Notes under the pieces: model-generated
Told to the model about the DNA's origin: nothing
Seen by the model: only the letters and a program-made list of their open reading frames with translations
The model's database searches: none
Shown here: positions 11,036 through 36,204 of the stretch, in pieces
Layout: every line of letters starts with the position of its first letter
Numbering within the stretch: the first letter of the stretch is position 1
Virus record (IMG/VR): IMGVR_UViG_3300034691_000025
Location: 1-36,204 of that record
Reading direction: 5' to 3' (one strand)
Length of the DNA stretch: 36,204 nucleotides
Source of the DNA: a virus
Position numbers and translations under genes: made by a program

Positions 11036-11057
11036 CCGAAAGGAATAGGCACCACTC

Positions 11058-12299
11058 ATGGCAAATGCACAGGCAGTCATTGACAAGGTATCGAAGGATA
11101 CCGTCAGGCTCTTCAAGAACAACACCGTTCTCGCCTCCAAGGTCAATCGGCAATTCGACAAGGAATTCGCCGCCTCCTCGGGCAAGATCGGCTACACCCT
11201 CCGAGTTCGCCAGCCGAACAAGTTCACCGTCAATACCGGCGCGACCTTCAGCGCCACGGACATCGCCGATCCCGTGTCGACGATCACCGTCCAAGGCCAG
11301 AAGCACGTCGACTTCCTGTTGACCTACGCTGACCTGACCATGAACACGGACGAGATGACCAAGCGATACGTGGCTCCCGCCATGAATCACTTGGCGGCCC
11401 AAGCTGACTTGGAAGGCTTTCTTCTGTATCAGAAGATCGCCAACCTGGTCGGAACTCCCGGCACCCAGCCCACCAGCACGAACACCGCGCAGTTGCTCAT
11501 GCAGGCCAATGCGAAGATCACGAACCAGTCGGCTCCCACGAACGACCGGCACTTGATCGTCTCGCCCAACCTGCAAGTCAGCATGATCGACGGAATGAAG
11601 GGTCTCTTCAACAGCCAGCAGATCATCGGCGACCAGTTCAAGAAGGGCGCCTTCGCCTCGGGAATCTTGGGCTACGACGACATCTCGGCGACCCAGTCTG
11701 TCGCGACCCACACGGTCGGCGCGTTGGGCGGAACTCCTCAAGTCAACGCGGCACAGGGCGCGGCTTCGGGCGCCTCCTACCAGTCCGGTACCCTCAGCAT
11801 CAAGGGCGCGACTGCGTCCGTGACCGGCTGGTGCAAGGCTGGCGACGTGGTGACCATCGCTGGCGTGTACGACGTGAACCCGCTGACCAAGTCGGTTCTG
11901 TCGAACCTGAAGCAGTTCGTCATCCTTGCCGATGCGAACTCGGACGGCTCGGGCATTGTCGCCACCACCATCGCCCCGGCGATCGTGTACGGCGGACCGT
12001 ACCAGACCTGTTCGGCTCAGGCTGCCAACAGCGCCGCGATCACCGTCATGTCCGGCACCACCGGCCAGAACTCGGAACAGGCCCTTGCGTTCCACGGTGA
12101 TGCGCTGACCTTCGTGATGGCTGAACTCGACATGCCCACCTCGGGTGTGATCGCTGCCAGCCGTGTGAGCGTCGACGACTACTCCTTCCGTATGGTCGCC
12201 TACTACAACGGCGATGCCGACCAGATCCGCGTCCGTATCGACGGCCTGTGGGGCTGGGCTGCCTTGCGTCCTGAGTGGGCCACCCGCTTGGCGTTCTAA
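11058..12299 (+). CDS. Major coat protein, P22 gp5 family
   Basis: 413 residues, almost the length of P22 gp5 (430). The start MANAQAVIDKVSKDTVRLFK, then KIGYTLRVRQPNKF and MTKRYVAPAMNHLAAQAD, follow the P22 coat pattern of the HK97-fold family. A hydrophilic insert around residues 225-345 (with GWCKAGDVVTIAGVYDVNP) matches the extra I-domain of P22 coat proteins. AAAGGAAT precedes the ATG. The gene is followed by a strong terminator hairpin. Confidence 0.92.
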   Translation: MANAQAVIDKVSKDTVRLFKNNTVLASKVNRQFDKEFAASSGKIGYTLRVRQPNKFTVNTGATFSATDIADPVSTITVQGQKHVDFLLTYADLTMNTDEMTKRYVAPAMNHLAAQADLEGFLLYQKIANLVGTPGTQPTSTNTAQLLMQANAKITNQSAPTNDRHLIVSPNLQVSMIDGMKGLFNSQQIIGDQFKKGAFASGILGYDDISATQSVATHTVGALGGTPQVNAAQGAASGASYQSGTLSIKGATASVTGWCKAGDVVTIAGVYDVNPLTKSVLSNLKQFVILADANSDGSGIVATTIAPAIVYGGPYQTCSAQAANSAAITVMSGTTGQNSEQALAFHGDALTFVMAELDMPTSGVIAASRVSVDDYSFRMVAYYNGDADQIRVRIDGLWGWAALRPEWATRLAF

Positions 12300-12306
12300 G
12301 AACCTT

Positions 12307-12340
12307 GGGCCGGGACATCCACCGGCCCTTTTCTCTTTCT
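12307..12340 (+). terminator. Rho-independent terminator after the coat gene
   Basis: GGGCCGG (12307-12313) pairs perfectly with CCGGCCC (12322-12328) across an 8-base loop and runs into TTTTCTCTTTCT. It lies seven bases after the coat stop. Partial termination here would raise coat over downstream tail proteins. Confidence 0.85.
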
Positions 12341-12353
12341 CTCTGGAGTAAAA

Positions 12354-12593
12354 ATGGAATACCCGAAGTGGCTCTATCTGGCCGAAGGAAATGGAATCCT
12401 CGTGCAGGATGCGGAAGAAGAAGCGACCGCACGCGCTGCCGGATTTGGCGACCTTGTGGGCGGCATTCCTCCCGGCGGCAAGCCTTCCGAAGATGACCGC
12501 GAAGCACTGAAAGCCAAGCTCAAGGCCGCAGGCATTCCCTTCGGTGGCAATACCGGGATCGAAAAGCTGCGCGAACTCGCAAAGGATCTCTGA
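12354..12593 (+). CDS. Small protein with C-terminal HeH/LEM-like domain
   Basis: 79 residues. GGAGTAAAA precedes the ATG. The N-terminus (MEYPKWLYLAEGNGILVQDA) is beta-like. The C-terminal segment DREALKAKLKAAGIPFGG followed by IEKLRELAKDL has the helix-extended loop-helix pattern of HeH/SAP-type DNA-binding motifs seen in small phage head proteins. The position between coat and gp4-like genes suggests a head-completion or decoration role. Function is not established. Confidence 0.6.
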   Translation: MEYPKWLYLAEGNGILVQDAEEEATARAAGFGDLVGGIPPGGKPSEDDREALKAKLKAAGIPFGGNTGIEKLRELAKDL

Positions 12594-13309
12594 TGCAGAC
12601 CACCGTCCTTGAGTTGATCCGGGCTGCGCTGAACGTCACCAACATCCTGTTCGACGGGGAAGACCCCGACGCGAACACAGGCAAGGCGGCGCGATTCCAG
12701 CTCAATTCGATGCTCGACTCTTGGGCTGGTGACAAGCTTGCGATCTACTCCGAGCGCAACGACGTCTTCACCCTCGTTCCCGGCACGGCTACCTACACGC
12801 TAGGCCCGACCGGGGCATGGGTGATGCCTCGCCCCGTGGAGATCACGGCGGCACAGACGCGGTACACATCGATCAACGAACAGCCCCTCGAGATCGTGTC
12901 GAATGACACCTACAACGCGATCCGGACGAAGGGAATCACCAACAGCGTCCAGTATGTGATGGGCTACCTCCCGTCCTATCCGAACGCCTCGGTTTCGTTC
13001 TACCCGACGCCGTCCGCTGCGAATCCCGTGCGGATCACCAGCAAGGTCCAATTCGCCAACATCGTGTCGATGACCGAGATCGTCGATCTCCCTCCCGGCT
13101 ATCAGGAGGCGATCATCTACAACCTTGCGTACCGCATCGCCACGAGCATGAACAAGCCTCTGTCGGATGCGGCGCGGGACATGGCGGTCCGCAGCTTGGC
13201 CCTCATCAAGTCGAACAACCTTGAGGACACTCCGCTTTCCATGCCTGACGTGATGGGCGGTAACTCGATGGCCTGGAACCCGAATACCGGCTACTGGGCG
13301 CGAGCATGA
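12593..13309 (+). CDS. Head-to-tail adaptor, P22 gp4-like
   Basis: 238 residues. The order after coat and before the gp10-like gene matches P22 head completion, where gp4 seals the portal and recruits gp10. The sequence (TTVLELIRAALNVTNILFDG, with FQLNSMLDSWAGDKLAIYS) is typical of phage gp4-like/tail-accessory adaptors: an alpha-helical N-terminus and a beta-rich middle. P22 gp4 also has hydrolase activity, which is not evident here. It is coupled by TGATG upstream and ATGA downstream. Confidence 0.8.
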   Translation: MQTTVLELIRAALNVTNILFDGEDPDANTGKAARFQLNSMLDSWAGDKLAIYSERNDVFTLVPGTATYTLGPTGAWVMPRPVEITAAQTRYTSINEQPLEIVSNDTYNAIRTKGITNSVQYVMGYLPSYPNASVSFYPTPSAANPVRITSKVQFANIVSMTEIVDLPPGYQEAIIYNLAYRIATSMNKPLSDAARDMAVRSLALIKSNNLEDTPLSMPDVMGGNSMAWNPNTGYWARA

Positions 13310-14781
13310 GCGCGAAGGTCTCGCAGATCGGGCCGGTGCATGGCTCGATGTTTGTCGGGCCTTCCTACGGCCACCGGTCGACCGTTGCGGATGCAGAGCG
13401 CACGCTGAACAAATACACCGAGTACATGGAGAGCGAAGGTGCCCGCGTGGCATCTGCCCTCATGGACACACCAGGGCTGCGGGAGGTCTCTCCAGCCGAA
13501 GGGCGCGGCGGGTGCCGATGCCTCTACCCTTCCGCAGGCGGTCGTCTGTTTGGCGTCTTCGGAAGCTCTGTCGTAGAGTTCGACTCCAGCTTCAATCGGA
13601 CTTGGCGCTTCTTCCTCCGCTCCAACTCTGGCCGCGTGACAATGGTTGACAACGGCGCCCAGCTTTTCATTGCCGACGGATCCGGGCATGATGGCTGGAT
13701 CTACAACCTCTCCCTGAACACGGCGGCACGGATCACCGATGCCAACTACCCGGGCGGCTACTTCGCGACCTACCTCGATGGCCTCTTCGGGTGCGAAGTC
13801 CCCGGCACCGACAAGTGGCAGTGGTCCACGCTCAACGATGGGAATGTCTGGCCTGCCCTGAACTTCGTTTCGGCGGAAGGGTTCCCCGACTCTATCGTTT
13901 CGGTGGTCTGCACCAACCTCGAAGTCTGGATGTTCGGCACCAAGTCAATCGAGGTCTGGTACCACTCGCAGGACCCGATCTATGTGTTCCAACGCTTCCC
14001 GTCCGCGGTCATCCCGATCGGATGCGCGGCACCGTGGGCAGTCGCGGAGATCTCGGGCGTCATCTTCTGGATTGGCTCGGCCTCCAACGGGTATGGTTCC
14101 ATCTGGATGTCCCAGGGGCACGGCCTGCCCAAGCGGGTGTCGAATCACGCCGTCGAGTTCCAGATCTCCAATGACGAGCTGTCCGACGCCTTCGCCTACT
14201 GCTACGCGCAGGAAGGGCACACATTCTACGTTCTGACTCTCCCGACCGCAAACAAAACGCTAGTCTACGACATTTCGACCGGCGAATGGCACGAACGCGG
14301 ATACATGATTCAGTCTACCGGCGTGATTGAGCGGCATTTGAGTTCGCACTGCGCGTTCTTCAATGGCGAGAACATGGTTGGCGAGTACCGCAACGATACT
14401 CTATATGCCTTCGACCTCGATTGGTTCAGGGACGGCACGACCGACCGAATCAAGCGGATGCGGCGCTTCCCGACCTACCACGCAGACCGGGCGATGGTCT
14501 CCTACTGGTCCCTTGAGATCTTCATGGATTGCGGAAACGCCCCGATCACCGGTGACGGCTCGGACCCCCAAATGATGCTCCGCATTTCCAACGACGGTGG
14601 GCGCACCTGGCCTGGTGAGATTTGGCGATCGATGGGCAAGCAAGGTGAGTTCGCCAAGCGCGTGAGGTGGGGATGTCGGCTCGGGTCGGCTCGCGAGCGC
14701 GTATTCGAGGTTACCAGTACGGAGCCGATCAAGCAACCTTGGCTCGGGTGTTACATCGAAGCCCAAGCGGTCACGCCGTGA
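13306..14781 (+). CDS. DNA stabilisation/tail hub protein, P22 gp10-like
   Basis: 491 residues against 472 in P22 gp10. It should close the portal channel after packaging and form the tail hub that holds the tailspikes. The order GPVHGSMFVGPSYGHRS, then GGCRCLYPSAGGRLFGVFG and VWMFGTKSIEVWYHSQDP, is characteristic of the Phage_stabilise family of beta-propeller-like proteins. The start overlaps the gp4-like stop (ATGA), and the stop overlaps the next GTG. Confidence 0.85.
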   Translation: MSAKVSQIGPVHGSMFVGPSYGHRSTVADAERTLNKYTEYMESEGARVASALMDTPGLREVSPAEGRGGCRCLYPSAGGRLFGVFGSSVVEFDSSFNRTWRFFLRSNSGRVTMVDNGAQLFIADGSGHDGWIYNLSLNTAARITDANYPGGYFATYLDGLFGCEVPGTDKWQWSTLNDGNVWPALNFVSAEGFPDSIVSVVCTNLEVWMFGTKSIEVWYHSQDPIYVFQRFPSAVIPIGCAAPWAVAEISGVIFWIGSASNGYGSIWMSQGHGLPKRVSNHAVEFQISNDELSDAFAYCYAQEGHTFYVLTLPTANKTLVYDISTGEWHERGYMIQSTGVIERHLSSHCAFFNGENMVGEYRNDTLYAFDLDWFRDGTTDRIKRMRRFPTYHADRAMVSYWSLEIFMDCGNAPITGDGSDPQMMLRISNDGGRTWPGEIWRSMGKQGEFAKRVRWGCRLGSARERVFEVTSTEPIKQPWLGCYIEAQAVTP

Positions 14782-14984
14782 GCATCGCCAAGCCCAATTT
14801 CCGATCCCCCTTCCTTGCGGCGATCCCAGGATCCGGAAAGACGGAATCATGGGGCTCGCTCGACCTCTACTGGCAGCGGATCATGGTCTCAATGGTCGAT
14901 GCCATCAACTTGCAGTCGAATCAAATCACAGAACTACAAACCAAGGTCGCGGCGTTGGAGCAATACAATACAGATCATCCGTGA
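14778..14984 (+). CDS. Small virion-region protein with C-terminal coiled segment
   Basis: 68 residues from a GTG that overlaps the gp10-like stop (GTGA). The N-terminal half (VSIAKPNFRSPFLAAIPGSG) is proline/glycine-rich. The C-terminal half, MVDAINLQSNQITELQTKV, is a short coiled coil. The position fits a small tail or needle-like component, but there is no needle-length coiled coil as in P22 gp26. Function unknown. Confidence 0.6.
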   Translation: MSIAKPNFRSPFLAAIPGSGKTESWGSLDLYWQRIMVSMVDAINLQSNQITELQTKVAALEQYNTDHP

Positions 14985-14989
14985 TCGGT

Positions 14990-14996
14990 GTATATT
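14990..14996 (+). promoter_or_regulatory. GTATATT element before the ejection genes
   Basis: GTATATT lies in a 69-base gap 58 bases before the next ATG. The gap is one of few in the late region. It matches elements at 8198-8204 and 25327-25333. No convincing -35 is present, so promoter activity is uncertain. Confidence 0.3.
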
Positions 14997-15053
14997 GTTG
15001 GAGGCGCAAGCCTTCGCCCCTCGTGGCGGCTACCTGAGAAAAGAAGGTGGCAG

Positions 15054-15821
15054 ATGAGCATTTGGGACGACGTAACAGGGGGATTGGGGAACGCTTGGGA
15101 CCAGTTCACGGGCCATGCAGGTGCACAGGCAGCGCGTAAGGCTTCCGGACAACTCACCGACGCCTACAACAAGGGCCTCGATGTCCAGCAGCAGCAGTAC
15201 CAGCAAGGCCTTTCTGCCCTTTCCCCGTACTCCCAGGCGGGCCAAACCGGGCTCCAAGGCCAACTCGCCGGGCTCTCGGATCCCAATTCATTCTATGGGT
15301 ACCAGTTCCAGCAGTTCGACCCGAACTCGGTCAACGTCCAGCAAGATCCCGGCTACCAATTCCGGCTCCAGCAAGGCCTCGATTCCGCCATGAACTCCCA
15401 GGCTGGGCGCGGTCTCCAGAACTCGGGCGGGGCACTCAAGGAGCTGAACAACTACGCGCAGGGGCAGGCTTCCCAGGAGTATAACAACGCTTACGGGCGC
15501 CAATACCAGACGTGGCAAGGCAATCAAGCCGGACAACTCGGCATGGCTCAGAACCGCGCCTCCGGGCTCGCTGGCCTGTCAAACATGGGATACAACGCGA
15601 CCACTCAAGGAAACCAGCTCGGCCAGAACTACGGCAACCAGTTCATGCAAGGCCAAATGGGCATCGGTGACGCGCAGGCAGCCAGAGCGCTCGGCGTCAA
15701 TGCCTCCCTGGCCGGTGGAGCGCAGAACTTCATGGATCTTGCAAAGCAGGCCGTCAAGGGTGGTGCTGCCTACTACACAGGCGGCCTCTCTGGATTGGCT
15801 GGATCGGTGGGCGGGCAGTGA
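15054..15821 (+). CDS. Ejection-type protein, PRD1 P32-like DNA transfer protein
   Basis: 255 residues. The start at 15054 follows AAGGTGG. The first residues (MSIWDDVTGGLGNAWDQF) may be amphipathic. The rest is very rich in Q, G, A and Y (LDVQQQQYQQGLSALSPYSQ), a composition typical of phage proteins annotated as DNA transfer/P32-like and of P22 gp7-type ejection proteins. It is the first of three coupled genes of this kind between the hub and the tailspike, which is the P22 place for gp7, gp20 and gp16. The role is inferred. Confidence 0.7.
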   Translation: MSIWDDVTGGLGNAWDQFTGHAGAQAARKASGQLTDAYNKGLDVQQQQYQQGLSALSPYSQAGQTGLQGQLAGLSDPNSFYGYQFQQFDPNSVNVQQDPGYQFRLQQGLDSAMNSQAGRGLQNSGGALKELNNYAQGQASQEYNNAYGRQYQTWQGNQAGQLGMAQNRASGLAGLSNMGYNATTQGNQLGQNYGNQFMQGQMGIGDAQAARALGVNASLAGGAQNFMDLAKQAVKGGAAYYTGGLSGLAGSVGGQ

Positions 15822-17155
15822 GCCTCGCCTCCCTCATCGCGCAAGGCGGACCACGGGTCTCCGCTCCCGACATTGCGGGTGGATTAGCGGAAGGCGCCCA
15901 GATGGGACGCCAGGCAGGCCTCCAGCGTCTCCAAGCTCAGGGGCTCGGGCTCTCGAACCTTGCCGACGAAGCCAAGCTACAGCAGATCCAGCAGGCCCAG
16001 GCGGACGCCGCACTCCAGCGCGACCAGATGAACCGGAATACCACAATGGGGCCGAATGGCCCTATTTTGAACCAGCAAGGCTACCTCTCTGGCCTCGCTC
16101 AAGGTGGCGCGGCTCCGATGGCCTACGCTGAGCAGGGCCGATTTGGCGCACAGGAAGCCGCCGCCCAGGCTGCGAAGATTGAGAAGGCCCAAGGCGAGAT
16201 CAAGCGCCGGACCCAGCTCCTTTCCGGGATCAAAAGCCCGATGCAGCTCGCCGCCGCGATTCCTGAGCTGGAGAAGCAGGGCGTCAACGTGGAAGAGATC
16301 CGCCAGATCCCGTTCCGTTCCGATTGGCGCCAAGCCCTCGACGGGATGATCCAGCAAGGGCTCTCTCACAGCGAGCGCATGGAACAGCTCAAGCAGTCTC
16401 TCGCTGAACAGGCCGCGACCCTCGATTGGCAGAAGGCGGACGTTGATCAGCAATACAAGCGCACGGGCGCTGCGCTCGATCAAGCCAAGCTCGACGAGAC
16501 GATCCGGAATAACAAAGCCGGGACCGCTGTCGATTGGTACAAAGCACAGAACCCCGTCGCCCTTCAGGGCACCAAAGCACCTCCCGGCTATCGCTACACG
16601 GCAGACGGTAACATGGAAGCGATTCCGGGCGGGCCTGCCGATGCGAAGAAGATCGCAGCCGATACCAAGGCCCAGGCCGGAGCGCAGCGGGCAACAGAGT
16701 TTGCCGATAGCGGAATTGGGACGATCGATCAGCTTCTTGCGTCTCCTGGCCTTGGGAAGATCACTGGATGGGCGTCAAAGATTCCGATCATTCCCGGCAC
16801 CGAACAAGCCAAAGCGAACGCGCTGGCCGAACAGCTTGAAGGCCAAGCGTTTCTTCAGGCGTTCCAGTCTCTCAAGGGTGGCGGCGCCATCACCGAAACC
16901 GAAGGAAAGAAAGCCTCGGCTGCGATTGCCAGGCTGAAGCGTGACCAGTCCAAAGAAGACTACTCGGCAGCCCTAAAGGAATTGCGCGGGATCATGGACG
17001 CAACCCGCAAGCGAGCGAGCGGTGCAGCGCCGCAAGCAGCGGAGACGACGCCCGCTCAAGCCAAGGCGATCACGGGGAAAGAGGATTATGACGCCCTCCC
17101 GGTTGGCGCGTCGTACATCTTCAACGGCGTGCCGCACGTGAAGGGGGCTAAGTGA
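15818..17155 (+). CDS. Internal virion/ejection protein 2
   Basis: 445 residues from a GTG overlapping the previous stop. The protein is mostly alpha-helical and rich in A, Q and K (LQQIQQAQADAALQRDQMNR), with long helices up to about residue 240. The C-terminal third has a helical domain around TEFADSGIGTIDQLLASPG and ITETEGKKASAAIARLKRD; this type of segment is frequent in phage ejection and injection proteins. It should leave the head with the DNA and help form a channel across the envelope. The role comes from position and composition. Confidence 0.65.
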   Translation: MSLASLIAQGGPRVSAPDIAGGLAEGAQMGRQAGLQRLQAQGLGLSNLADEAKLQQIQQAQADAALQRDQMNRNTTMGPNGPILNQQGYLSGLAQGGAAPMAYAEQGRFGAQEAAAQAAKIEKAQGEIKRRTQLLSGIKSPMQLAAAIPELEKQGVNVEEIRQIPFRSDWRQALDGMIQQGLSHSERMEQLKQSLAEQAATLDWQKADVDQQYKRTGAALDQAKLDETIRNNKAGTAVDWYKAQNPVALQGTKAPPGYRYTADGNMEAIPGGPADAKKIAADTKAQAGAQRATEFADSGIGTIDQLLASPGLGKITGWASKIPIIPGTEQAKANALAEQLEGQAFLQAFQSLKGGGAITETEGKKASAAIARLKRDQSKEDYSAALKELRGIMDATRKRASGAAPQAAETTPAQAKAITGKEDYDALPVGASYIFNGVPHVKGAK

Positions 17156-18828
17156 CCTCTCGGACAAAGCCATACCCGAAGGAATGGGCGCCGCCTGCCG
17201 AAGAAGCGGTCGGCTGGACCCCCCCCGAGGCTGAAGCGGCCCAGGCTGCACCACAAAAACCTGCCGCCCCCGGTTGGGCGCAAGCCTTGTTCCCAAGCTC
17301 CTACGGCCGTCAAGGCGCCACAAATGCCCAGGGCGAAGAAACGGGCGCGGCCCTGGCTGGGATCAAGGATCTTGCCGCGCTCCCGGTGAACTTAGCGTCC
17401 GGAATCTACGCCGCGATTGGCGCTCCGTCTGGGATGGCAAGCGAAGAAGCTCGCACGGCGATGGCTTCCAAGGGTGAAGGCGACATGAGCCAAAACCAGC
17501 GGGCAGTCATGGGCCTCAGCCTCGCAAGTGCTCCGATCGGAGGCGCTGTCCTTCGTGCGATCCCTGCCGCCGCCGCGATTGGCGAGGGTGGTGGTGCTCT
17601 TGCAAACTTCGGACGGCTCGCTAGTGCCGCCGGAAAGAATATCGGTCGCCAAGCTCTGGCCGGTGCCGCCGAATCTGCCCCCGCTGCCGCGCTCCAGGCC
17701 TACCAAGGTGATGTTGGCGGCGCAGCGGGTTCGCTTGGGATCGGCGCCCTCCTTCGCCCCGTGGCCGCTGGCCTCTCCAGGGCTCCGGGAGCCGTGGCCG
17801 ACATGACGGAACGCGGAGCTGGAGCGCTTTCTGGTGTCCCTGGCCACGAATTGGCGGCGATCGGACCGTTTGGAATGTCGGATTATGGTCGAAAAGTCTC
17901 GAAAATCGCCAAAAACCCGAACGCGGCCCACGAACTCGGCCAAGTCGTCGTTGATCGGGTGAAAAACTTTGATCAATACCTTCCGAATGCCGCCGCCGTC
18001 GACGAAATGGTCGCGAATCTGCCCCCAATCGACGCAAACGACATAATCGGCGCCCTCGAGCGGTCTAGGCCCAAGCTCATGGTGGGCGCAAGTGCGAAAA
18101 GCGCATCCATGAAGATCGATGATCTCATTGCGGACGTGACCAAGATTTCCGCACAAGACGGAACGATCCCGGCTAGCGTGGCTCGCCAAGTCAAACAGAC
18201 TTTCGACGCGGAAGTCGGAGACGCCTTCGGAAAAGAGTCTTCTGCCTACATCTCGGCCCTCAAGAATGGACGCCACGACATCGCCAAGGCCCTCGAGAGT
18301 GCAGCCGAGCGGAGCGGCGTTCCCGAGTACAAACAGGCCATGCAGGACTACACGCGGCGCCTTGGGGCTCTCGACAAGGTCACCTCCAAGCTCGGCGGCG
18401 ACGAGGCCACGATGCGCGGGCGAGTTGAATCCTACATCTCGAACCTTGGCGGGGCGAACAAGACCGAAGCTCGCAAGGCATTCGCAGACCTGGCCGACAT
18501 CATGGGCGAAGACTTCGCGGCCCAGGCTCAGGCCATCGCGACGGCGAAACGTGCGATGCCGGGCGGTTCGCTCCCGATCTTCCCAACTCACACGACGGGG
18601 CGGTCGCTCCTCGGCTTGAACGCGATGACTGCTGTAGGTTCGGGCGGCGGTTCGGCACTGGCCAGCATCCCGCTCGCCGCGCTCTCCTCGCCCCTTCTCG
18701 CGTCCAGCGCCATCGCTGGTACTCGTGGCCTCGCGAACCTTGCTGGAACCAAGTCTGCGACATACACCGGACTCGCTGGTCTGGCCGCACTTCGCGCCGA
18801 CCTTCAAGCAGAAAACGCGAGGCAGTAA
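17152..18828 (+). CDS. Internal virion/ejection protein 3
   Basis: 558 residues from a GTG overlapping the previous stop. The N-terminus is proline-rich (KPYPKEWAPPAEEA). Alanine/glycine-rich hydrophobic segments occur at about residues 118-150 and again near 500-535 (ALASIPLAALSSPLLASSAI). The central 240-450 region is charged and helical. Membrane-compatible ends around a soluble core fit a P22 gp16/gp20-type ejection protein. No lytic transglycosylase motif is visible. Its stop overlaps the tailspike start (TAATG). Confidence 0.65.
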   Translation: MTSRTKPYPKEWAPPAEEAVGWTPPEAEAAQAAPQKPAAPGWAQALFPSSYGRQGATNAQGEETGAALAGIKDLAALPVNLASGIYAAIGAPSGMASEEARTAMASKGEGDMSQNQRAVMGLSLASAPIGGAVLRAIPAAAAIGEGGGALANFGRLASAAGKNIGRQALAGAAESAPAAALQAYQGDVGGAAGSLGIGALLRPVAAGLSRAPGAVADMTERGAGALSGVPGHELAAIGPFGMSDYGRKVSKIAKNPNAAHELGQVVVDRVKNFDQYLPNAAAVDEMVANLPPIDANDIIGALERSRPKLMVGASAKSASMKIDDLIADVTKISAQDGTIPASVARQVKQTFDAEVGDAFGKESSAYISALKNGRHDIAKALESAAERSGVPEYKQAMQDYTRRLGALDKVTSKLGGDEATMRGRVESYISNLGGANKTEARKAFADLADIMGEDFAAQAQAIATAKRAMPGGSLPIFPTHTTGRSLLGLNAMTAVGSGGGSALASIPLAALSSPLLASSAIAGTRGLANLAGTKSATYTGLAGLAALRADLQAENARQ

Positions 18829-21599
18829 TGGCAATCGGCTCTCTCCTCCCTTGGGTCGCCGCGCAGTGGTTCACCGACGCGGGCGATGCCGTCCTTTCGG
18901 GTGGCCGCGTCTACTTCTACGCCGTCGGCACCACTACCCCGAAGCCGGTCTACCAAGACTACCAGCGCCTCGCCGCGCATCCCCAGCCGGTTGTCCTCAG
19001 TTCGTCGGGACATGCTACAGTCTTCCTTGGTGATGGCGGTTATAAGGTCGTCCTGACCGATGAATCCGGCGCGATCCTCGATACCAAGGACGGCATCTTC
19101 GGCGGAAGCGGGAATTTCGTTGGCCTCGGGTCCAATGCTACGGTCGGATTCTTCAAGCTCTACGCTGACGTGCGAGCGCTGACCGATGGCCCCGATGTCG
19201 TATATGTCTCGGGTCGCACCGTAGAGGGCGATGGCGGGCAAGGCCTCTTCCAGCTTCTCCCAGGCTCAAGCATCCCCGACGACGACGGCATCTACCTCGT
19301 GGCCGGGGGCGGCTCGTTCGTCTACAAGCGCATTTTCGATGAGTCGATCAATCCGGAATGGTTCGGCGTCAAGTATGACGTCGCGATCGATCAGAGCGCC
19401 CGGCTGAATGCTGCCCTGGCCGCGTCCGTCTACCTGAACTTCCCGGTTCTCGTCACGCGCCAAGTCTACCTCTCGGCGAACATCACACTTCCGACGAACG
19501 CCAGCCTTCGCACGAACGAAGATGGCTACTTCTCGTCGGGCTCGTCCGTCTCGATCACGTTCCCCACTGGCTCGCGGTTCGCCTGCACGGGATCGCCATT
19601 CCGCGCTGGCATTCAGCCGGCCTTTGTGGCCGGCACGATCGACGCGCTTCGCCTCTCGTGGTTCAGCGGGACCGACTCCAGCAAGTGGGCGCGCCTCCTT
19701 GCCTCCACGGCGGCCAGCTTTCCGCTTTTAATGGACGTGAGCACGACGCTCACCAGCGACCTCACCATCCCGGCGAACTTCGCCTTGGAGCCCGTTGGCG
19801 GGACCGTAGTGACGTTCGGTGGGTTCGCCAACCTCTCCATCGGTTCGCTCAACTACCGGGGCCTGTCGCAGCTCATCGCTTACCTCGTGGACTCCTACGT
19901 CGGATCAGTGAGCATCGGCGCGGATGTCTGCTACTTGGAATGGTTTGGGGGGTCGTCGGCGAACACCGGAGCGCAGAACGCGATCCCGTTCCGGGCCTGC
20001 CTCCTTTCGGAGCGGGTAGACTTGCTTCCCTCGAAGGTCTACACGGTCACCAGTACGAATGCAATCTCTTTCGCGAATACGAACACTGTCCGCATCAATG
20101 GGAACGGGTCGACTCTCGTCTTAAATCAAGACGTGTCTATCGCCATCACCACGGAAACTAGGGAGATCACGATAGACGGGACCGGAACGCTTAATTTCGG
20201 CGGGGCGGTCTTCTGGGATTCGATCATCTTTTCGCGGGTGACGGGCGGAGCAAAGGCAGCAAGGCGCAGTACGCTTACAAACGTGAACTCCATCGTCGAA
20301 AGCTATGACTCGTCGATCTTTGGCTTTTCTGGGCAGATTGGCGGAAACCTTTCTGACTGTTCGATCAGTTTCAGCGGAACCGGTGTCGTCAATGGGAGCT
20401 GGCGTTTCGCGGGGTGCAAATTCCAGAAGGTCGCAGCGGGTGGGACTCCGCTTTTCACAGCCCCAACCGACCCGGCAAAAATCGAATTCAATGGGTGCAA
20501 AATCGATATTGACGGCCTCCTCTGCTACAGCGAGAATACAAGCCTGACCATCGATCTAATCGGATGTACCTCGACGGATAGCTTCGCCAAGGCGCTGTCG
20601 AACGGTTACGCAAAGGTCAATCTCAAGGGCTGCGGGGTCGTCAACAACTCGAACGTCTACTCGATCGACGGCGTAGATCTCGAGGTCGCGAATACGATCC
20701 CGATGGGCTCCGGGCACGCAGCCACCGTCATCACCAGCGCGACCACAAATTGGAAGGGTCTCGGTTCGCCAACTAGCGACGGAACCTCCTTGACTCTCGG
20801 ATCCAACGCCACCCTTTCCTCCGACCCGTACAGCCCCAACACGATCCGATGCATTGCGTACGGACTATTTGACGCTGCCTGGCGGTACGGAGGCATCTTC
20901 GAAACGGAAATCACGTACCCCGTCGGGTCACCTCCAGACCCCGCGACAGAGCTTGTCGTGATGTTTTGCCATCCGCCTACAGCCAACGTCGCGACGGTCG
21001 GAGTGAACGCTTACGGGGACGGCAACTACTTCAATACCATGCCGGTCGAGCTTGGGAAGAGCCTTCCTGCCAAGCTTCCCATCCTGGCAAGCGCGAAACT
21101 CAAGATGCGGACGAATGTTTGGGGCGGGCAGGTTGACTTTAGAGCAGTTTCGGAGCCTCATTCGACGTACACAGTCTCGGATATTTGGGGAGACTCTTCA
21201 GTCTCTGTCCCAACGAATACGAATACATTCATCCCAGAAGCCGGGCGGCTCGTCATCTACAACGCTGGAGCCGGAATTCTTCCAGCGGGCACGAAAATCA
21301 AAGTGACGTACAGATACGACCTGCCGATCCGCGACCAGTTCAGGAAGTTCTTCCCAGATCAGAAGGCCCTCCAGAACATTTCCAGCTCTATCTATTTGAG
21401 CGCTCCATTGTCTTATCAGGCCGTCCGGGTAAGGACATCCTTAACAGCGGGGTATTCTGGGCAGACGCAACTCTCGATTCCCTTTATGTTCCGTGACTGC
21501 GATGAAAATGGGATGCAGGCCGCGCTTTGCATTCGCGAGACCGACACGCTTCCGTTTGTCCAGTGGAACAGCGCAACACTCGCCCTAGGATGGTCATAA
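18828..21599 (+). CDS. Tailspike with P22-type head-binding domain
   Basis: 923 residues. Residues 5-85 (LPWVAAQWFTDAGDAVLSGG, then VYFYAVGTTTPKPVYQDY) form a P22-tailspike-like head-binding domain. After a linker with VSGRTVEGDGGQGLFQL there is a beta-helix region; the entry motif EWFGVKYD (about residue 180) recurs as LEWFGGSSANTGAQN (about 368), suggesting two stacked or duplicated helix entries. It should bind and perhaps cut surface polysaccharide. Catalytic residues cannot be assigned by eye. The next gene starts with the same domain. Confidence 0.8.
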   Translation: MAIGSLLPWVAAQWFTDAGDAVLSGGRVYFYAVGTTTPKPVYQDYQRLAAHPQPVVLSSSGHATVFLGDGGYKVVLTDESGAILDTKDGIFGGSGNFVGLGSNATVGFFKLYADVRALTDGPDVVYVSGRTVEGDGGQGLFQLLPGSSIPDDDGIYLVAGGGSFVYKRIFDESINPEWFGVKYDVAIDQSARLNAALAASVYLNFPVLVTRQVYLSANITLPTNASLRTNEDGYFSSGSSVSITFPTGSRFACTGSPFRAGIQPAFVAGTIDALRLSWFSGTDSSKWARLLASTAASFPLLMDVSTTLTSDLTIPANFALEPVGGTVVTFGGFANLSIGSLNYRGLSQLIAYLVDSYVGSVSIGADVCYLEWFGGSSANTGAQNAIPFRACLLSERVDLLPSKVYTVTSTNAISFANTNTVRINGNGSTLVLNQDVSIAITTETREITIDGTGTLNFGGAVFWDSIIFSRVTGGAKAARRSTLTNVNSIVESYDSSIFGFSGQIGGNLSDCSISFSGTGVVNGSWRFAGCKFQKVAAGGTPLFTAPTDPAKIEFNGCKIDIDGLLCYSENTSLTIDLIGCTSTDSFAKALSNGYAKVNLKGCGVVNNSNVYSIDGVDLEVANTIPMGSGHAATVITSATTNWKGLGSPTSDGTSLTLGSNATLSSDPYSPNTIRCIAYGLFDAAWRYGGIFETEITYPVGSPPDPATELVVMFCHPPTANVATVGVNAYGDGNYFNTMPVELGKSLPAKLPILASAKLKMRTNVWGGQVDFRAVSEPHSTYTVSDIWGDSSVSVPTNTNTFIPEAGRLVIYNAGAGILPAGTKIKVTYRYDLPIRDQFRKFFPDQKALQNISSSIYLSAPLSYQAVRVRTSLTAGYSGQTQLSIPFMFRDCDENGMQAALCIRETDTLPFVQWNSATLALGWS

Positions 21600-23060
21600 A
21601 TGAGCCTCTTGCCCTGGACCACTCAGCAATGGTTCGACGATGTTGGCGACCCTCTCCAGTTCGGGAAGATCTACTTCTACCAAGCCGGAACACTCGTCCC
21701 GAAGGTCACCTACAAGAAGGCCGACCAGTCCGAGGCGAACGAGCACCCAATCATCCTCGACGCCGCTGGCCGCGCTAAGGTCTGGATCATCGACGGCGAG
21801 GCTTATGACGAGGTCGACCATGACGAGAACGACAACGTCTTGCGATCCTTGCAAGGGATTGTCGTCAACGCGAGCAGCGGCGGAACGGTAGTAGATCGCA
21901 AGGTTGCAACCGATGATGCTGACGCGACTCCTGGCGTGCTGGTCGACAAAACCATCTCAAGCTCGTCCGTGGAAATCACCGTCGTGGACAGCGGAGGCCG
22001 AAAGCTCCAATTCACCGTTGACGAAGCGTGGCTCTCCTCCTGGCTGACCATCAACTACCCATTCCCCGCCGATGACCATCTCGTCATCTCAGACGGCACC
22101 ACGCAGACAGCCGGGACGCTTGCCCAGAAGATCACCGACGCGCTCGGGACGGTCTTCGCGGTCAACGGCGCCAAACAGCTTGTTATCCCCCTCCAGAGCT
22201 ACCTGAGCCTGGTTGGCGGAGGCACGGTCACCGGCCCGACGACGTTCACCAACGTGACGATCCCCGACCAGTTCAAGATCAAGGCGGGAAGCGGTGACAT
22301 TGCCGGATGGTACGTCGACAAGATCCAGCCAGGCACAGGCATCGAGTTCAGTGAGACGGTCGACGGCGTGAACGGTGTCGTCCTGCACATTTCGAAGACG
22401 GACGAAGGCGCATTGACCGCACCTCTCCACGAGGTCATCACGGGTGACGGCGCGGGCGGGGTCCTCAGCTCCCCCAGCTTCACAGCGGTAGGCGGCGACG
22501 TTGCGACGAACACCGTCACCTCCAGTGCGACCGGCCCAGCCATCACGGCGCCGAACGGATCGGTCCTGGCATCTGGCGTGGCTGAAATGGCACAATCAGC
22601 ATGGGCTGGAACGGGCGCAGCGTGGTTTGGTCCGGAGGGACACAATCCGGCGACAGACGACGGCACGCTTTCGGGACTCATCTCGACAGAATTCGTCTCG
22701 ATCCTTCGCGGCCCCCACGGAGGGAGCGCAACGCTTGGAACCGGCCTCGGGAACATCGCAGCCTACGACGACCAGGTCGCCGCCGACGTGCCTACATCGG
22801 CCCCCGCCTTTCACCAGCTCGACGGCGTGATCCTGACCGGCGCGTCGTACTCGTCGACGTACCATGCGACCATCTGCTTCTTTGGTACCGGAACGGCATT
22901 CGTCGTGCCAGCGGGCGGTTCGCTCAACCGAACCATTCGCCTCAGCAACAGTTCGGCGGCATCGATCGCGGTGACCGGAGTCGCGACCGCGTTCACGCTT
23001 GCGCCGGGGCAGTCTCGCGACCTCTTCTGGAGTGAGGAAGTCACTCCCAAATGGTACTGA
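21600..23060 (+). CDS. Second tailspike/fiber with the same head-binding domain
   Basis: 486 residues. Residues 3-80 (LLPWTTQQWFDDVGDPLQFG, then IYFYQAGTLVPKVTYKK) are a diverged copy of the N-terminal domain of the upstream tailspike. The remainder is unlike it: beta-rich repeats with GTVTGPTTFTNVTIP and GGVLSSPSFTAVGG, as in fiber shafts. No beta-helix entry motif is seen. The ATG directly follows the upstream TAA. It may attach to the same tail site as the tailspike or form a branched adaptor. Confidence 0.75.
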   Translation: MSLLPWTTQQWFDDVGDPLQFGKIYFYQAGTLVPKVTYKKADQSEANEHPIILDAAGRAKVWIIDGEAYDEVDHDENDNVLRSLQGIVVNASSGGTVVDRKVATDDADATPGVLVDKTISSSSVEITVVDSGGRKLQFTVDEAWLSSWLTINYPFPADDHLVISDGTTQTAGTLAQKITDALGTVFAVNGAKQLVIPLQSYLSLVGGGTVTGPTTFTNVTIPDQFKIKAGSGDIAGWYVDKIQPGTGIEFSETVDGVNGVVLHISKTDEGALTAPLHEVITGDGAGGVLSSPSFTAVGGDVATNTVTSSATGPAITAPNGSVLASGVAEMAQSAWAGTGAAWFGPEGHNPATDDGTLSGLISTEFVSILRGPHGGSATLGTGLGNIAAYDDQVAADVPTSAPAFHQLDGVILTGASYSSTYHATICFFGTGTAFVVPAGGSLNRTIRLSNSSAASIAVTGVATAFTLAPGQSRDLFWSEEVTPKWY

Positions 23061-28065: not shown

Positions 28066-28310
28066 TGTCCGACCTCATCCGGATATTTACCCAGCTCTTG
28101 GATGTAGTCGGGATCGCCGATCAACTCATCTTCGGCAAACGGGAGGATCTGCCCACCCGTCACCCGAACGAAATAGATGGTCCCGTCAGGCAGCGCGGAT
28201 ACCTGGATCGAAACCACTTCCCCGATCAGATCCGGTATAATCCGATCGCCGATGCGCTTTTGGTGGGTCGTGACGATCTCACGAAGCCCGAATTTGGTGG
28301 AAATCTTCAT
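28062..28310 (-). CDS. Small beta-rich protein downstream of the helicase
   Basis: 82 residues starting MKISTKFGLREIVTTHQKR. Alternating hydrophobic residues (GEVVSIQVSALPDGTIYFVR) suggest a small barrel like SH3/KOW domains, and the tail is acidic. The ATG overlaps the helicase stop (ATGA). It may be a helicase-associated protein, but only position suggests this. Confidence 0.6.
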   Translation of the reverse strand: MKISTKFGLREIVTTHQKRIGDRIIPDLIGEVVSIQVSALPDGTIYFVRVTGGQILPFAEDELIGDPDYIQELGKYPDEVGQ

Positions 28311-29671
28311 GCCTTCATCGACCATTCTGAGGTTATGGCTGGTCGAAAGCGAGTGTAGGGTCCTTCGAACATCAGCTCGGTTGACGACTCTGCAGCGGAT
28401 CGTCCCTTCTGCAGATCAAGGACTCGTTTCGATGCAACGATCTTCGCTCGCTGATATCCTTGATCCTCGAGCTGGGATCGCTGCGCGTTCTTCATGGTCA
28501 AGATCACCCGCTTTGCCTTTGCTAGCTCTTCCGGCTCCGGGTGGTAGACCATCAGGATCGCGTCTGCGTCCTGGCGAATCCCGCCTGATTCTTTGATGTG
28601 GTGGAGTTTTGGCGTTCCTTCCCGGCTCGCCTCGTTGTTGAGCTGGGTCAGCGCGTAGACAACACAATCTAGACGCCTCGCCATGAGTTTGCAGTGTCTT
28701 GAGATCGCCGCGACCTCTTGGGCCCGGTTCGATTCGCCGCCGCGCTTCTTCCCGCCTTCCAGGAGTTGCAGATAGTCGATGATGATTGCGCCAAGCCCTC
28801 CCTTTGAGATCTTGAGGGCCCGGGCGGATTGCTCGATTTCGTGGATCGTTTGCGCTTCTGTGATGTGGATCCCGCGCCGAACAATTTGCGACCGCGCCTC
28901 GGCTCGCTCGAATTCCTGCAGGTTGCGCCCGCGAATCCGGGAAATCTCGATCTTCTTGGTTGTCCAGGGGATGATGCGCTCGATGATTTCGTCCGTGCTC
29001 ATTTCGAGGGATGCGATCAGCACATTTTCGCGCTCTCCAACCGATGCCCCGATCCCTGCAGCCAAAGCCGTCTTCCCGCCCCCTGAGAAGCCCCCTAAGA
29101 CGACGTAGTTACCCGGGCGAGGGATGTAGAGCTTATCAAGCCAGTCGATCCCTGTAGGGCACTCCCTGGGCATTTCTGTGGATAAGACCGAATCAAGCCC
29201 TGAGGCGGCATGAGTGTACCCGGATCGCGACCCCCCGGCGCCGTTGACGATGCCTGTCACCCTGGCGACGATGTCCGTCACGAGGCTATCAGCGTCCTCC
29301 GCTTCCTCGGATTGTGCTAGAGCCCAGCGGCCCAGCTCGATGATCTGGCGGCGCTTGTAGCAGTCCAGGATTGCCGCGATCTCGCCTTCCACCCCGACCA
29401 TAGAGACAGAAGACTCCATTATCTCCATCAGGTAGGCATCGCCCCCGACATGCTGTAGCTTCTCCGACCCCTGCAGGGCCGCGACGACTGTTCCAAGGTT
29501 CGGCGAAGAGGTTTCGGCCAGCTTCGCGACCGTCTCGAAAATCAACTGGTGGCGAGCGGAATAGAAATGCTCGATCCGGATTTTCGCGATTATCTCGTGG
29601 GCCCGGTCGCCGAATCGAATCATTCGGCCAAGGATCGCGCCCTCGAGTTCGGTATTGTTGGGAATTTCCAT
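28307..29671 (-). CDS. Replicative DNA helicase, DnaB family
   Basis: 454 residues, full DnaB length. The N-terminal domain (TELEGAILGRMIRFG onward, residues 7-115) is the hexamer collar that contacts loader or primase. The RecA-like core has Walker A GGFSGGGKT (193-201), the SLEMS segment (221-225), Walker B AIIIDYLQLL (295-304), ALTQLNNEASR (340-350) and ESGGIRQDAD (361-370). It should unwind the phage fork 5' to 3'. It is coupled to the replication protein gene just upstream (TGATG), as in P22 gp18-gp12. Confidence 0.92.
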   Translation of the reverse strand: MEIPNNTELEGAILGRMIRFGDRAHEIIAKIRIEHFYSARHQLIFETVAKLAETSSPNLGTVVAALQGSEKLQHVGGDAYLMEIMESSVSMVGVEGEIAAILDCYKRRQIIELGRWALAQSEEAEDADSLVTDIVARVTGIVNGAGGSRSGYTHAASGLDSVLSTEMPRECPTGIDWLDKLYIPRPGNYVVLGGFSGGGKTALAAGIGASVGERENVLIASLEMSTDEIIERIIPWTTKKIEISRIRGRNLQEFERAEARSQIVRRGIHITEAQTIHEIEQSARALKISKGGLGAIIIDYLQLLEGGKKRGGESNRAQEVAAISRHCKLMARRLDCVVYALTQLNNEASREGTPKLHHIKESGGIRQDADAILMVYHPEPEELAKAKRVILTMKNAQRSQLEDQGYQRAKIVASKRVLDLQKGRSAAESSTELMFEGPYTRFRPAITSEWSMKA

Positions 29672-30360
29672 CAGAGCCGCGCCAGTGCTTCGGGGTCAAT
29701 TCCGTCGAGGGCGTGCGGATCAAAAACCGAAGGATCGCTAGGCGCCGCGTATCCCGTGACCGCGGCGGGATGTTCCCTGCCCCAATTCCCCGCGCATGTT
29801 GCCGCCCTGCGGCGCCACTCCATCGGACGGCCTTTGTCCATCCATTCGCGGCCCTGGTAGTAGGCGAACGCACTCACGACATCGCCGATTGGCCACCACG
29901 GGTAGTTTGCCGCGGCATTGGATTTCCAGGAGTCGATCGAAGGCGGGAGCGTAGCTTCCGCGCTCTGTTGCTTCTTTGTTCTCTTTGTCTTGTTTGTTTG
30001 TTGTGTTGTGTTATTGGTAGCATCCGGTAGCTCAAGTGGTATACGGGGGTATTCCGCGGTAGATCCGGTAGCATCCGGTAGCGTTTCTTCTACCGGATCT
30101 ACCGCGGTAGCTTTGGTATACCGCGCAGACACGCGCTCGGATTGCTTCCTGGAGAACGCTTCAGCATCCTGTAGAGACGCTTTCCCCGCGGAAAAGCCCA
30201 TCCTCCATTCCATCGGGCACCCGTCGGCCGCATCTTCTCCCGCGGCACCAGCGAGCCACCCGCGGAGCCATCGTCCCGCCTCATCGTCGCTCATCAAGGC
30301 GGTTGCGTTCCGGGCTTCGGCGTGATCCATCTTGGACCAGTAATTCCGCTTACCGCTCAT
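29671..30360 (-). CDS. Replication initiator/helicase-loader-like protein carrying the origin in its gene
   Basis: 229 residues. The ATG at 30360 overlaps the upstream stop (ATGA); an in-frame extension to 30384 is less likely. The N-terminal 80 residues are helical and basic (YWSKMDHAEARNATALMSDD, then LQDAEAFSRKQSERVSARY). A low-complexity linker at residues 83-140 has repeated LPDAT and many T, K and Q. The C-terminal domain (residues 141-200) is tryptophan-rich (WKSNAAANYPWWPIGDVVSA). The order (DNA-binding part, linker whose DNA is repetitive, helicase-binding part) and the helicase gene next door resemble lambda O or P22 gp18. No sequence-level family match is claimed. Confidence 0.6.
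   Translation of the reverse strand: MSGKRNYWSKMDHAEARNATALMSDDEAGRWLRGWLAGAAGEDAADGCPMEWRMGFSAGKASLQDAEAFSRKQSERVSARYTKATAVDPVEETLPDATGSTAEYPRIPLELPDATNNTTQQTNKTKRTKKQQSAEATLPPSIDSWKSNAAANYPWWPIGDVVSAFAYYQGREWMDKGRPMEWRRRAATCAGNWGREHPAAVTGYAAPSDPSVFDPHALDGIDPEALARL
29971..30122. other. Candidate replication origin: iterons, large inverted repeat and T-rich run
   Basis: ATCCGGTAG occurs at 30022-30030, 30063-30071 and 30073-30081 and inverted at 30090-30098. CCGCGGTAGATCCGGTAG (30054-30071) is repeated as a perfect 18-bp inverted copy at 30090-30107. GGTATAC at 30038 and GGTATACC at 30115-30122 flank this as a further inverted pair, and CTACCGCGGTAG (30099-30110) is a palindrome. Adjacent, 29971-30015 is almost only T, C and G with many T runs and no A before 30013. 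Iterons next to a strand-biased easily melted stretch inside an initiator gene is the lambda ori plan. Confidence 0.6.
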
Positions 30361-32780: not shown

Positions 32781-33169
32781 CCCTCCCCCTGCAATTGGGC
32801 GATTTCGGCGAGGCAGGCGCGATAGAAGCGAGACCACCGCTCATCCCGCGCCAAAGACAGAAACGGCATCGCGTTGAATCGCCTCCGACTGGCTTCCGCC
32901 ATCCTCCGAAGCTGGGAGATGCGGAGGCGGCGGATCGTGGCGTGGTCGCGCATCGCTTCTATCGACAGCTTCCCGATGGCTTCGCTCATTCCATGGCATT
33001 CAGGGCATCCGCGATCTTCGTCGCCTCCGATGCCAACCTCAACGCCGATGAGATCTTGGAGAAGTCGGATCGCCTGTTGCACGGTTCCATCAACCCCATG
33101 CGCGTCTGGGGCTCGCCAATACTTGAAGCCGTGATCGATGGCCTTCTTTTGGATGTCGGAAGTAGTCAC
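32777..33169 (-). CDS. Early protein with CxxC motif
   Basis: 130 residues from a GTG (33169) that overlaps the upstream stop as GTGA. It starts VTTSDIQKKAIDHGFKYW. A CPEC pair (about residue 52) gives one half of a possible metal site. The C-terminal half is basic and helical (RRLRISQLRRMAEASRRRF, then WSRFYRACLAEIAQLQ). Nucleic-acid binding is plausible from charge. Family not recognised. Confidence 0.6.
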   Translation of the reverse strand: MTTSDIQKKAIDHGFKYWRAPDAHGVDGTVQQAIRLLQDLIGVEVGIGGDEDRGCPECHGMSEAIGKLSIEAMRDHATIRRLRISQLRRMAEASRRRFNAMPFLSLARDERWSRFYRACLAEIAQLQGEG

Positions 33170-34342: not shown

Positions 34343-34377
34343 GGGAAAAGGTCAACAATCTTTGGAAGAGAAAGTGA

Positions 34378-34406
34378 TTGACATTCTCCGCTCTCTTCTA
34401 TAGATT
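34378..34406 (+). promoter_or_regulatory. Rightward early promoter TTGACA-17-TAGATT
   Basis: A consensus -35 TTGACA (34378-34383) is followed after 17 bases by TAGATT (34401-34406). A start near 34413 leaves about 20 bases before the TTG codon and includes the AAGGAGG at 34423-34429. It drives the recombination module. Confidence 0.7.
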
Positions 34407-34433: not shown

Positions 34434-34607
34434 TTGAAGAACGAAGAAGAGAAGATCAAGACTCGCGCCAATATCGGGGCGAACGATGCGGACTGGGCGA
34501 CCATCCGACAGGCGGTCGTGCTCACCGGGAAAGAGCAGTCGATTTTCCTGCGGGAAGCGGCGATCCAGAAGGCTCGCAGCGTGCTTGCGCGGAAGGGGGT
34601 GAAGTGA
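34434..34607 (+). CDS. Ribbon-helix-helix-like small protein
   Basis: 57 residues from a TTG, supported by AAGGAGG ending four bases upstream. The sequence (TRANIGANDADWATIRQAVV, then EQSIFLREAAIQKARSVLAR) matches the strand-helix-helix pattern of RHH/DUF1778-like proteins such as antitoxins and Arc-type repressors. No toxin gene of GNAT type follows, so a stand-alone regulator of the early promoters is more likely. The stop overlaps the next ATG (TGATG). Confidence 0.6.
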   Translation: MKNEEEKIKTRANIGANDADWATIRQAVVLTGKEQSIFLREAAIQKARSVLARKGVK

Positions 34608-35548
34608 TGGACATCATGCCGACCGAACCGACCGCCATGGCCGTCGTTGAAACCTCAAGCTCCGCCCTTGCCGCCCAAGTCAAGGCGACCGTCGAGGCTC
34701 GCTACACCGTGGCGATCGCCCGGCCCCGCGATCTCGACATGGTCCGCGAGCGGCTTATCAAGGACGCTCGCCGCCCTGGATTTGCTGATGTCGCGATCTA
34801 CCAAAAGCCGATCGGGAAGGATGAAACGAAATGGCCCACCGGCCCGTCGATCCGTTTCGCCGAAGCAGCCATCCGCGCAATGGGAAATTGCATCGTGGAG
34901 GCGGTGACGGTTTTTGACGACAAGGAGCGTCGAATCGTCCGCGTGTCCGCCACCGACCTGGAATCCAATACGACGCTCCCGATCGACGTACTGGTCAACA
35001 AGACTGTCGAGCGGTCCTACCTCAAGGATGGCGAAAAAGCCCTCTCGACGCGCCTCAATTCCTACGGGAAACCGGTTCACACGGTCATTGCATCCGACGA
35101 CGACGTGCTGAACAAGGTCAACGCGATGGTGTCTAAGGCCTACCGTACCGCCGCCCTCCGCCTTGTCCCCGGCGACATCGTGGAGGAGGTGATGGACGTT
35201 TGCTGGGAGACGCGCCGCAACCAGGATGCGCAAGACCCAGAGACAGCCAAAAAGAAGCTGTTCGACGCGTTCGGACGGCAAGGCGTGACCGTGGAGCAAC
35301 TCAAGGCGTTCCTGGGCCACGAGGCCAAGCTCTTGACGGCGAAGGAGCACGAGACGCTTCGAGGCGTGTTCAACGCCTTGAAGGAGGGGGAAACGACCTG
35401 GCGGGAGGTGATGGACGCCCGCGAGAAGGGGCCGAACGGTGAGCCGCCCACACCACCACCCGAAACGCCCGAACAGAAGAAGGCCCGCGAACTCGCCGCC
35501 AAGCGCAAGGAAGCTTCGCCCGCTGGGCTCGAGGGGATGGCATCATGA
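34607..35548 (+). CDS. Candidate recombination (single-strand annealing-type) protein
   Basis: 313 residues. The core TKWPTGPSIRFAEAAIRAMGN (about residues 77-96, quoted in part), followed by a strand-rich region (RRIVRVSATDLESNTTLPID) and NKVNAMVSKAYRTAALRLVP (from about 166), matches a phage family usually left unnamed and placed beside PD-(D/E)XK exonucleases. The C-terminus is a P/E/K-rich tail. With a DEDDh exonuclease and a PD-(D/E)XK exonuclease directly downstream in coupled order, an annealing or recombination-mediator role is the best inference. I cannot show a RecT, Erf or Rad52 fold from sequence alone. Confidence 0.55.
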   Translation: MDIMPTEPTAMAVVETSSSALAAQVKATVEARYTVAIARPRDLDMVRERLIKDARRPGFADVAIYQKPIGKDETKWPTGPSIRFAEAAIRAMGNCIVEAVTVFDDKERRIVRVSATDLESNTTLPIDVLVNKTVERSYLKDGEKALSTRLNSYGKPVHTVIASDDDVLNKVNAMVSKAYRTAALRLVPGDIVEEVMDVCWETRRNQDAQDPETAKKKLFDAFGRQGVTVEQLKAFLGHEAKLLTAKEHETLRGVFNALKEGETTWREVMDAREKGPNGEPPTPPPETPEQKKARELAAKRKEASPAGLEGMAS

Positions 35549-36123
35549 AGATGTGTTACATCGACACCGAAACGACCGGCCTGGACGCCAAGCGGCACGG
35601 GATCATCCAGATAGCCGCGATCATGGAAATCGAAGGTGAGGTCGTCGACAGGATCAATCTCGACATCCGCCCCGCCTCCTGTTGCGCTTGCGACGCAAAG
35701 GCGCTGGAGATCTCCGGGAAAACGCTCGAGCAGATCAAGGAATTTCCACATGAGGCCGACCAGTTTCGCGAGTTCTGCGCGTGGCTAGGAGCGCACGTGG
35801 AGAAGTTCGACCGCATGGACAAAGCGTTTTTCTGCGGGTACAACTCTCCTTTCGACGTCGAGTTCATGCGGATGCTCTTCGAGCGCAACGGCGACAAGTA
35901 TTTCGGTTCGTGGTTCTGGTCCGGATCGATCGACGTGATGGGGCTCGCGCTTCTCAAACTTCGCGACGTGCGCCACGAGATGGAGAATTTCAAGCTCGGC
36001 ACGGTCGCCGAAAAGGTTCTTGGCGCCGAAACTGTCGCGAAGATGACGAGCGAAATCGGATTGCATAACGCAATGACCGACATCGAGCTGACGCGGGAGA
36101 TCTTTTTGCGGGTGGCATCATGA
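35545..36123 (+). CDS. DnaQ-like DEDDh 3'-5' exonuclease
   Basis: 192 residues. All three exonuclease motifs are visible: CYIDTETTGLD (D7 and E9), GYNSPFDVEFM (D104), and LHNAMTDIELT (H174 and D179), giving the DEDDh signature of the epsilon/RNase T group. It should trim 3' ends with two metal ions. The ATG overlaps the upstream stop (ATGA) and its stop overlaps the PD-(D/E)XK nuclease start across the contig join, so three recombination genes are translated as a chain. No polymerase gene is present, so proofreading would require a host enzyme. Confidence 0.88.
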   Translation: MKMCYIDTETTGLDAKRHGIIQIAAIMEIEGEVVDRINLDIRPASCCACDAKALEISGKTLEQIKEFPHEADQFREFCAWLGAHVEKFDRMDKAFFCGYNSPFDVEFMRMLFERNGDKYFGSWFWSGSIDVMGLALLKLRDVRHEMENFKLGTVAEKVLGAETVAKMTSEIGLHNAMTDIELTREIFLRVAS

Positions 36124-36204
36124 TCGCGCAGCTCATCGAAGGCCTTCCATGGGCCGACTACGCGGTCGAAGGTTGGCTAGGGTCGTCGGCGCTCCACGCG
36201 TTCC
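36120..36204 (+). CDS. 5' fragment of the PD-(D/E)XK nuclease gene (duplicate of left end)
   Basis: Identical to bases 43-127. The reading frame runs off the window and continues at position 128 on the circular map. It is not a separate gene. Confidence 0.9.
   Translation, partial: MIAQLIEGLPWADYAVEGWLGSSALHAF

Follow-up and report, generated by a model that had tools for sequence, protein, structure and literature searches.

We analysed the complete IMG/VR record IMGVR_UViG_3300034691_000025, a stretch of 36204 bases that we refer to as the window. On its minus strand, a putative replication initiator gene (29671-30360) is followed by a gene for a DnaB-like replicative helicase (28307-29671; Pfam DnaB_C, E 8e-43; DnaB N, E 2e-16). 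Within the initiator gene lie an iteron-like array of 12 GGTA cores (30016-30122, by motif count) and a T-rich tract (29964-30015). The helicase has both the N- and C-terminal domains of its family by Pfam and is homologous to P22 gp12 (BLASTP E 6e-18); its start overlaps the end of the initiator gene, so the two genes adjoin as a preliminary description of this DNA had stated. The initiator gene encodes 229 residues from the ATG at 30360, which overlaps the stop codon of the upstream gene as ATGA, or 237 residues from an ATG at 30384. Among the possible frames, this minus-strand frame alone has a positive codon score, with a GC3 of 0.70-0.71 at both ends of the gene.

The surrounding genome has the gene set of a P22-like podovirus, with a portal protein matching Pfam P22_portal (E 4e-152) and a coat protein matching P22_CoatProtein. 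Structural genes are carried on the plus strand and an early operon, which includes the helicase and initiator genes, on the minus strand from ~34.4 kb down to 27.6 kb. The record ends in a 127-bp direct terminal repeat, identical at 1-127 and 36078-36204, from which it is either a complete, circle-closing record or one with an assembly overlap of the same length. The sole sigma-70-like promoter match in the early region (TTGACA-17-TAGATT, 34378-34406) sits in an AT-rich gap between two divergent operons and is adjoined by an imperfect 15-bp inverted repeat (34357-34371 and 34392-34406). Elsewhere in the window, a pair of adjacent genes for tail spikes or fibres (18828-21599 and 21600-23060) encode similar starts (LLPW..QWF.D.G......YFY..GT), as if they shared a common virion-anchoring head.

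The initiator protein and its genomic relatives

The putative initiator had no family match in Pfam, PHROGs or NCBIfam, no Rep-family match and no match in the PDB. Searches of phages, plasmids, viral contigs, bacterial genomes and ~40 related phage records, including by tblastn, returned no relatives, and BLASTP similarity to P22 gp18 and lambda O was not significant. By these searches the protein is an orphan, without detectable relatives. A likeness of its N- and C-terminal parts to other phage replication-protein domains was considered and was not borne out by hmmscan. A single-sequence AlphaFold model reached a mean pLDDT of 38.8, a very low confidence that is too poor for a fold search. 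In this low-confidence model, residues 13-84 and 142-196 are drawn as helices separated by coil, and the array and tract are encoded at residues ~80-132, in this coil region, where the protein forms a low-complexity linker.

The closest structural relative of the window is IMGVR_UViG_3300034076_000016 (L094), with a portal 69% identical. Neither this record nor the other structural cousins gave a DnaB match, and L094 has a different, 314-residue candidate replication protein; the replication module is therefore mosaic. Sequence identities indicate that the genome as a whole is mosaic as well: the RecT-like and exonuclease genes (34604-36123 and 43-855) reach 81% identity with one set of phages (L099 and L100), and most structural genes (8211-18828) are ~55-72% identical to another set (L072, L093 and L094). 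In L094, the linker of the unrelated candidate replication gene contains a pyrimidine-rich run of tandem 11-12-bp units at 15409-15459, with its tandem stretch at 15417-15459, a possible second case of an origin-in-linker plan that has no clear iterons.

A phased GGTA array and a strand-biased tract

GGTA cores lie on the plus strand at 30016, 30026, 30038, 30048, 30058, 30067, 30077, 30106 and 30115, and on the minus strand at 30091-30094, 30100-30103 and 30119-30122. These 12 cores in 107 bp compare with at most three GGTA/TACC per 110 bp anywhere else in the window, and the array is the genome's top cluster for 6-, 7-, 8- and 9-mers alike. The seven direct cores from 30016 to 30077 follow one another in steps of 10, 12, 10, 10, 9 and 10 bp, approximately one helical turn each, and their phase coherence is highest, at 0.89, for a period of 10.25 bp.

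Four exact ATCCGGTAG units (30022, 30063 and 30073 on the plus strand; 30090-30098 on the minus strand) have zero further exact copies in the window. The arms of a perfect 18-bp inverted repeat lie at 30054-30071 and 30090-30107, with a spacer of 18. With spacers up to 60 allowed, the window has none longer; the next longest independent inverted repeat is 11 bp, which is 7 bp shorter. The 18-bp repeat is enclosed by outer dyad arms, GGTATAC (30038-30044) and GTATACC (30116-30122), which pair in predicted folds, and the reflection score of the whole dyad is unexceptional by a crude measure. The preliminary description had reported the three direct and one inverted ATCCGGTAG units, the 18-bp inverted repeat and the T-rich, A-poor run beside them, and we recovered all of these; the run of seven direct cores at helical-turn intervals and the outer arms are additional to it. 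We found no DnaA box (TTWTNCACA) near 29900-30200. The closest, an exact match to the consensus (TTATCCACA) on the minus strand at 29177-29185, lies inside dnaB some 0.8 kb from the array and could be chance.

The tract at 29964-30015, a candidate DNA unwinding element (DUE), is T-rich and A-poor on the plus strand and A-rich and T-poor on the coding strand, where it encodes a NNTTQQTNKTKRTKKQQ linker. It is the most T-over-A-biased 52-mer of the genome, with T exceeding A by 33 in 52 bases compared to 24 at the runner-up place in the whole window, and the window's longest A-free run (59 nt) lies at 29954. The tract is among the two to five least stable places in the window, and an intergenic segment at 34345-34400 is less stable. 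Its composition is largely, though not wholly, dictated by the Asn/Thr/Gln/Lys composition of the linker, with an observed T-bias of 30 against a mean of 25 in synonymous shuffles.

For the array, we generated 900 synonymous recodings of the gene, 300 each by permuting its own codons, by drawing from genome codon usage and by drawing uniformly. None of the 900 reached the 18-bp inverted repeat (maximum 16), the 12 cores (maximum 7) or the four ATCCGGTAG units (maximum 2). Cores are found in every codon phase and in both orientations, and their ~10-bp spacing is no multiple of three. The reading frame is open throughout the gene, and the codon score is negative inside the array. GC3 is 0.71 before the array and 0.70 beyond the T-rich tract, compared to 0.40 in the array and 0.41 in the tract; because this drop falls exactly over the array and tract, we conclude that a DNA signal overrides codon preference here, and the sequence of the array appears to be selected above it. 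This collapse, together with the presence of units in all three phases and both orientations, supports the earlier suggestion that the protein linker carries a DNA signal. The drop in codon preference also provides a simple means of looking for other embedded origins.

Among the matches listed from iteron-pattern scans of viral contigs, nearly all were arrays that step by 9 or 12 bp and probably represent in-frame peptide repeats; the pattern of the first scan could not have matched the window's own array. The end of contig L093 (1-147) carries a 15-bp unit, GGTCCGCGCCGCGCA, in nearly ten copies, which probably encode an in-frame pentapeptide repeat.

A candidate origin and alternative readings

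We consider it likely that the array and tract form a phage replication origin inside its own initiator gene, working like the origins of lambda and P22 in a new initiator. This is the best explanation of the locus because of its layout, the override of codon preference, the uniqueness of the array in the window and the parallels with lambda and P22 described below. In the mechanism that we infer, dimers or oligomers of the 229-residue protein would bind the GGTA-core sites, most of which lie one helical turn apart and hence on the same face of the DNA, and would assemble a compact wrapped complex like the O-some of lambda. Strain from this complex would open the T-rich/A-rich tract on the dnaB side, and the initiator's other domain would bring the phage's own DnaB, encoded by the next gene, onto the single strand.

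Several observations count against the origin reading. The protein lacks detectable homology to known initiators, no relative was found to keep the gene, the poor structural model gives no DNA-binding fold, no DnaA box accompanies the array and the window has a place less stable than the tract. The minimum of GC skew, which the preliminary description had proposed as a check, also falls elsewhere, near 33.5-34 kb, and gives no pointer to the array; GC skew is uninformative for the origin in this genome, where it follows gene orientation.

The dyad could alternatively act in RNA: the rep-dnaB mRNA would form a long hairpin there, and expression of the downstream helicase gene would be controlled through it by attenuation, translation pausing or RNase processing. 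The region of the 18-bp repeat is indeed predicted to fold as a strong hairpin, both as RNA (-52.9 kcal/mol, z -6.65) and as DNA (z -5.05), and it lies within an operon of overlapping genes. An RNA structure would leave unexplained the direct repeats outside the hairpin, such as GGTAGCATCCGGTAGC at 30016-30031, which recurs at 30067-30082, as well as the helical-turn spacing and the adjacent strand-biased tract. An Rfam search gave no match, the transcribed strand carries no terminator with a U-run, and the origins of lambda and P22 share the layout without such a hairpin. We regard this reading as improbable.

About equally improbable, in our assessment, is a DNA-binding array unrelated to initiation, either an operator through which the replication operon represses itself or a centromere-like partition site. 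Sites that are clustered, phased and inverted within a gene would suit any cooperative DNA-binding protein. An operator in the middle of a gene would be unusual, though; the scan of neighbouring proteins recognised no gene of the ParA/ParB type, and the adjacent T-rich tract and helicase gene would go unexplained. Least probable of all is that the repeats are functionless low-complexity coding sequence arising from slippage or local duplication: the region does encode a low-complexity linker, and phage contigs commonly carry GGTAG repeats stepped by 9 or 12 bp, both multiples of three, but here units in steps of 9-12 bp fall in all three frames and both orientations around a perfect inverted repeat that no recoding matched, and codon preference is lost over the array. 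Each of these rivals leaves part of the pattern unexplained.

If the locus is an origin, a more specific proposal can be advanced tentatively: that the initiator family is new and so is its binding architecture, in which a 10-bp-phased GGTA array set in an 85-bp dyad supports a one-face initiator filament or an extruded cruciform that opens the tract and loads the phage DnaB without a separate loader. We think this possible but rather doubtful; were it true, unrelated initiators would have converged on the same origin-in-linker plan with the same strand polarity. For an uncultivated phage lineage, the locus in either form offers a candidate origin that is both compact and testable, together with an initiator that has no known relatives.

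Comparison with lambda, P22 and other origins

As yardsticks we used lambda O (NC_001416) and P22 gene 18 (NC_002371), both with annotated origins, and applied the same repeat-clustering statistic with 200 synonymous shuffles. Lambda O and P22 gene 18 each scored 5 for 6-mers against a shuffle maximum of 4, and the window's initiator gene scored 7 against a maximum of 4; there was no excess in the other tested genes of the window, in lambda P or in P22 gene 12. A survey of DnaB-neighbouring genes in a few other phages, which is illustrative only, gave mixed and weaker signals, and one control methyltransferase gene was also fairly high. The repeats agree in position and polarity as well, lying at coding nt 349 in lambda, 361 in P22 and 274 in the window, and the maximum of coding-strand A over T comes after the repeats in each case (nt 420, 422 and 369, respectively). 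The tracts themselves are alike by eye (ACACAAAAGACACTATTACAAAAGAAAAAAG in lambda, ACACAAAAGACAATATACAAAAGACAATAAATAC in P22 and ACACAACACAACAAACAAACAAGACAAAGAGAACAAAG in the window).

The window has clustered repeats within the gene just upstream of a helicase or helicase-loader gene, and directly downstream of the repeats an AT-rich, strand-biased tract whose coding strand is A-rich. The preliminary description had likened this plan to that of lambda ori in gene O, and the likeness holds in layout, order and strand polarity, with P22 closer still. Two features of the O-type initiator family, protein homology and ~18-bp iterons at ~20-bp steps, were not found in the window.

The lambda origin occupies the central part of gene O and consists of iterons and an AT-rich tract (PMC7466680; PMC3349717). 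As in the window, its iterons (39034-39118) occupy the linker-coding middle of the gene and are followed by an AT-rich tract with the same strand bias. Lambdoid iterons have been silently recoded with the encoded protein left unchanged, to examine their role in replication (PMC7466680). Lambda has four 18-bp iterons at ~20-24-bp steps, whereas the cores of the window recur at ~10-bp steps, and a separate loader, P, recruits the host DnaB, whereas the window has a phage DnaB gene next door; lambda O has no detectable relation to the window's initiator. The P22 origin is known to lie in gene 18 from the annotation of its record (rep_origin 32840-32984). P22 shares with the window a P22-like virion, repeats in the initiator gene, then a coding-strand A-rich, T-poor tract, and then a DnaB-type gene, gene 12, overlapping the initiator's end. 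Its iterons also hold a GGTA core (TCGGTAAA, compared to CGGTAG in the window), possibly by chance. Unlike the window, P22 has fewer and more widely spaced repeats and no long perfect inverted repeat, and its initiator is not detectably related.

Similar arrangements occur further afield. SPP1 oriL lies in gene 38 and comprises repeats and a DUE (PMC6316719). In its layout, SPP1 shares with the window direct repeats and an AT-rich DUE in the gene of an origin-binding protein and a phage DnaB-type helicase, gp40 (PMC6316719). It differs in having a second origin, oriR, and the loader gp39. To our knowledge, the iterons of plasmids are not embedded in the linker of their initiator. The iteron plasmids RK2 and F have initiator-bound repeats beside a DUE, one strand of which is bound by the initiator (PMC4081077); the window has the same juxtaposition of repeats and candidate DUE, and its initiator is predicted to bind the repeats.

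Lambda and Stx phages are known to have origins within their initiator genes (PMC7466680), and the plan itself is not new. What sets the window apart is an orphan initiator with an unusually dense, helically phased and dyad-shaped array. Here the lambda and P22 plan, with repeats and then a strand-biased tract in the linker, followed by the next replication gene, would be used by an initiator that has no detectable relatives. This further case suggests that the plan itself, rather than the protein family, is kept by selection.
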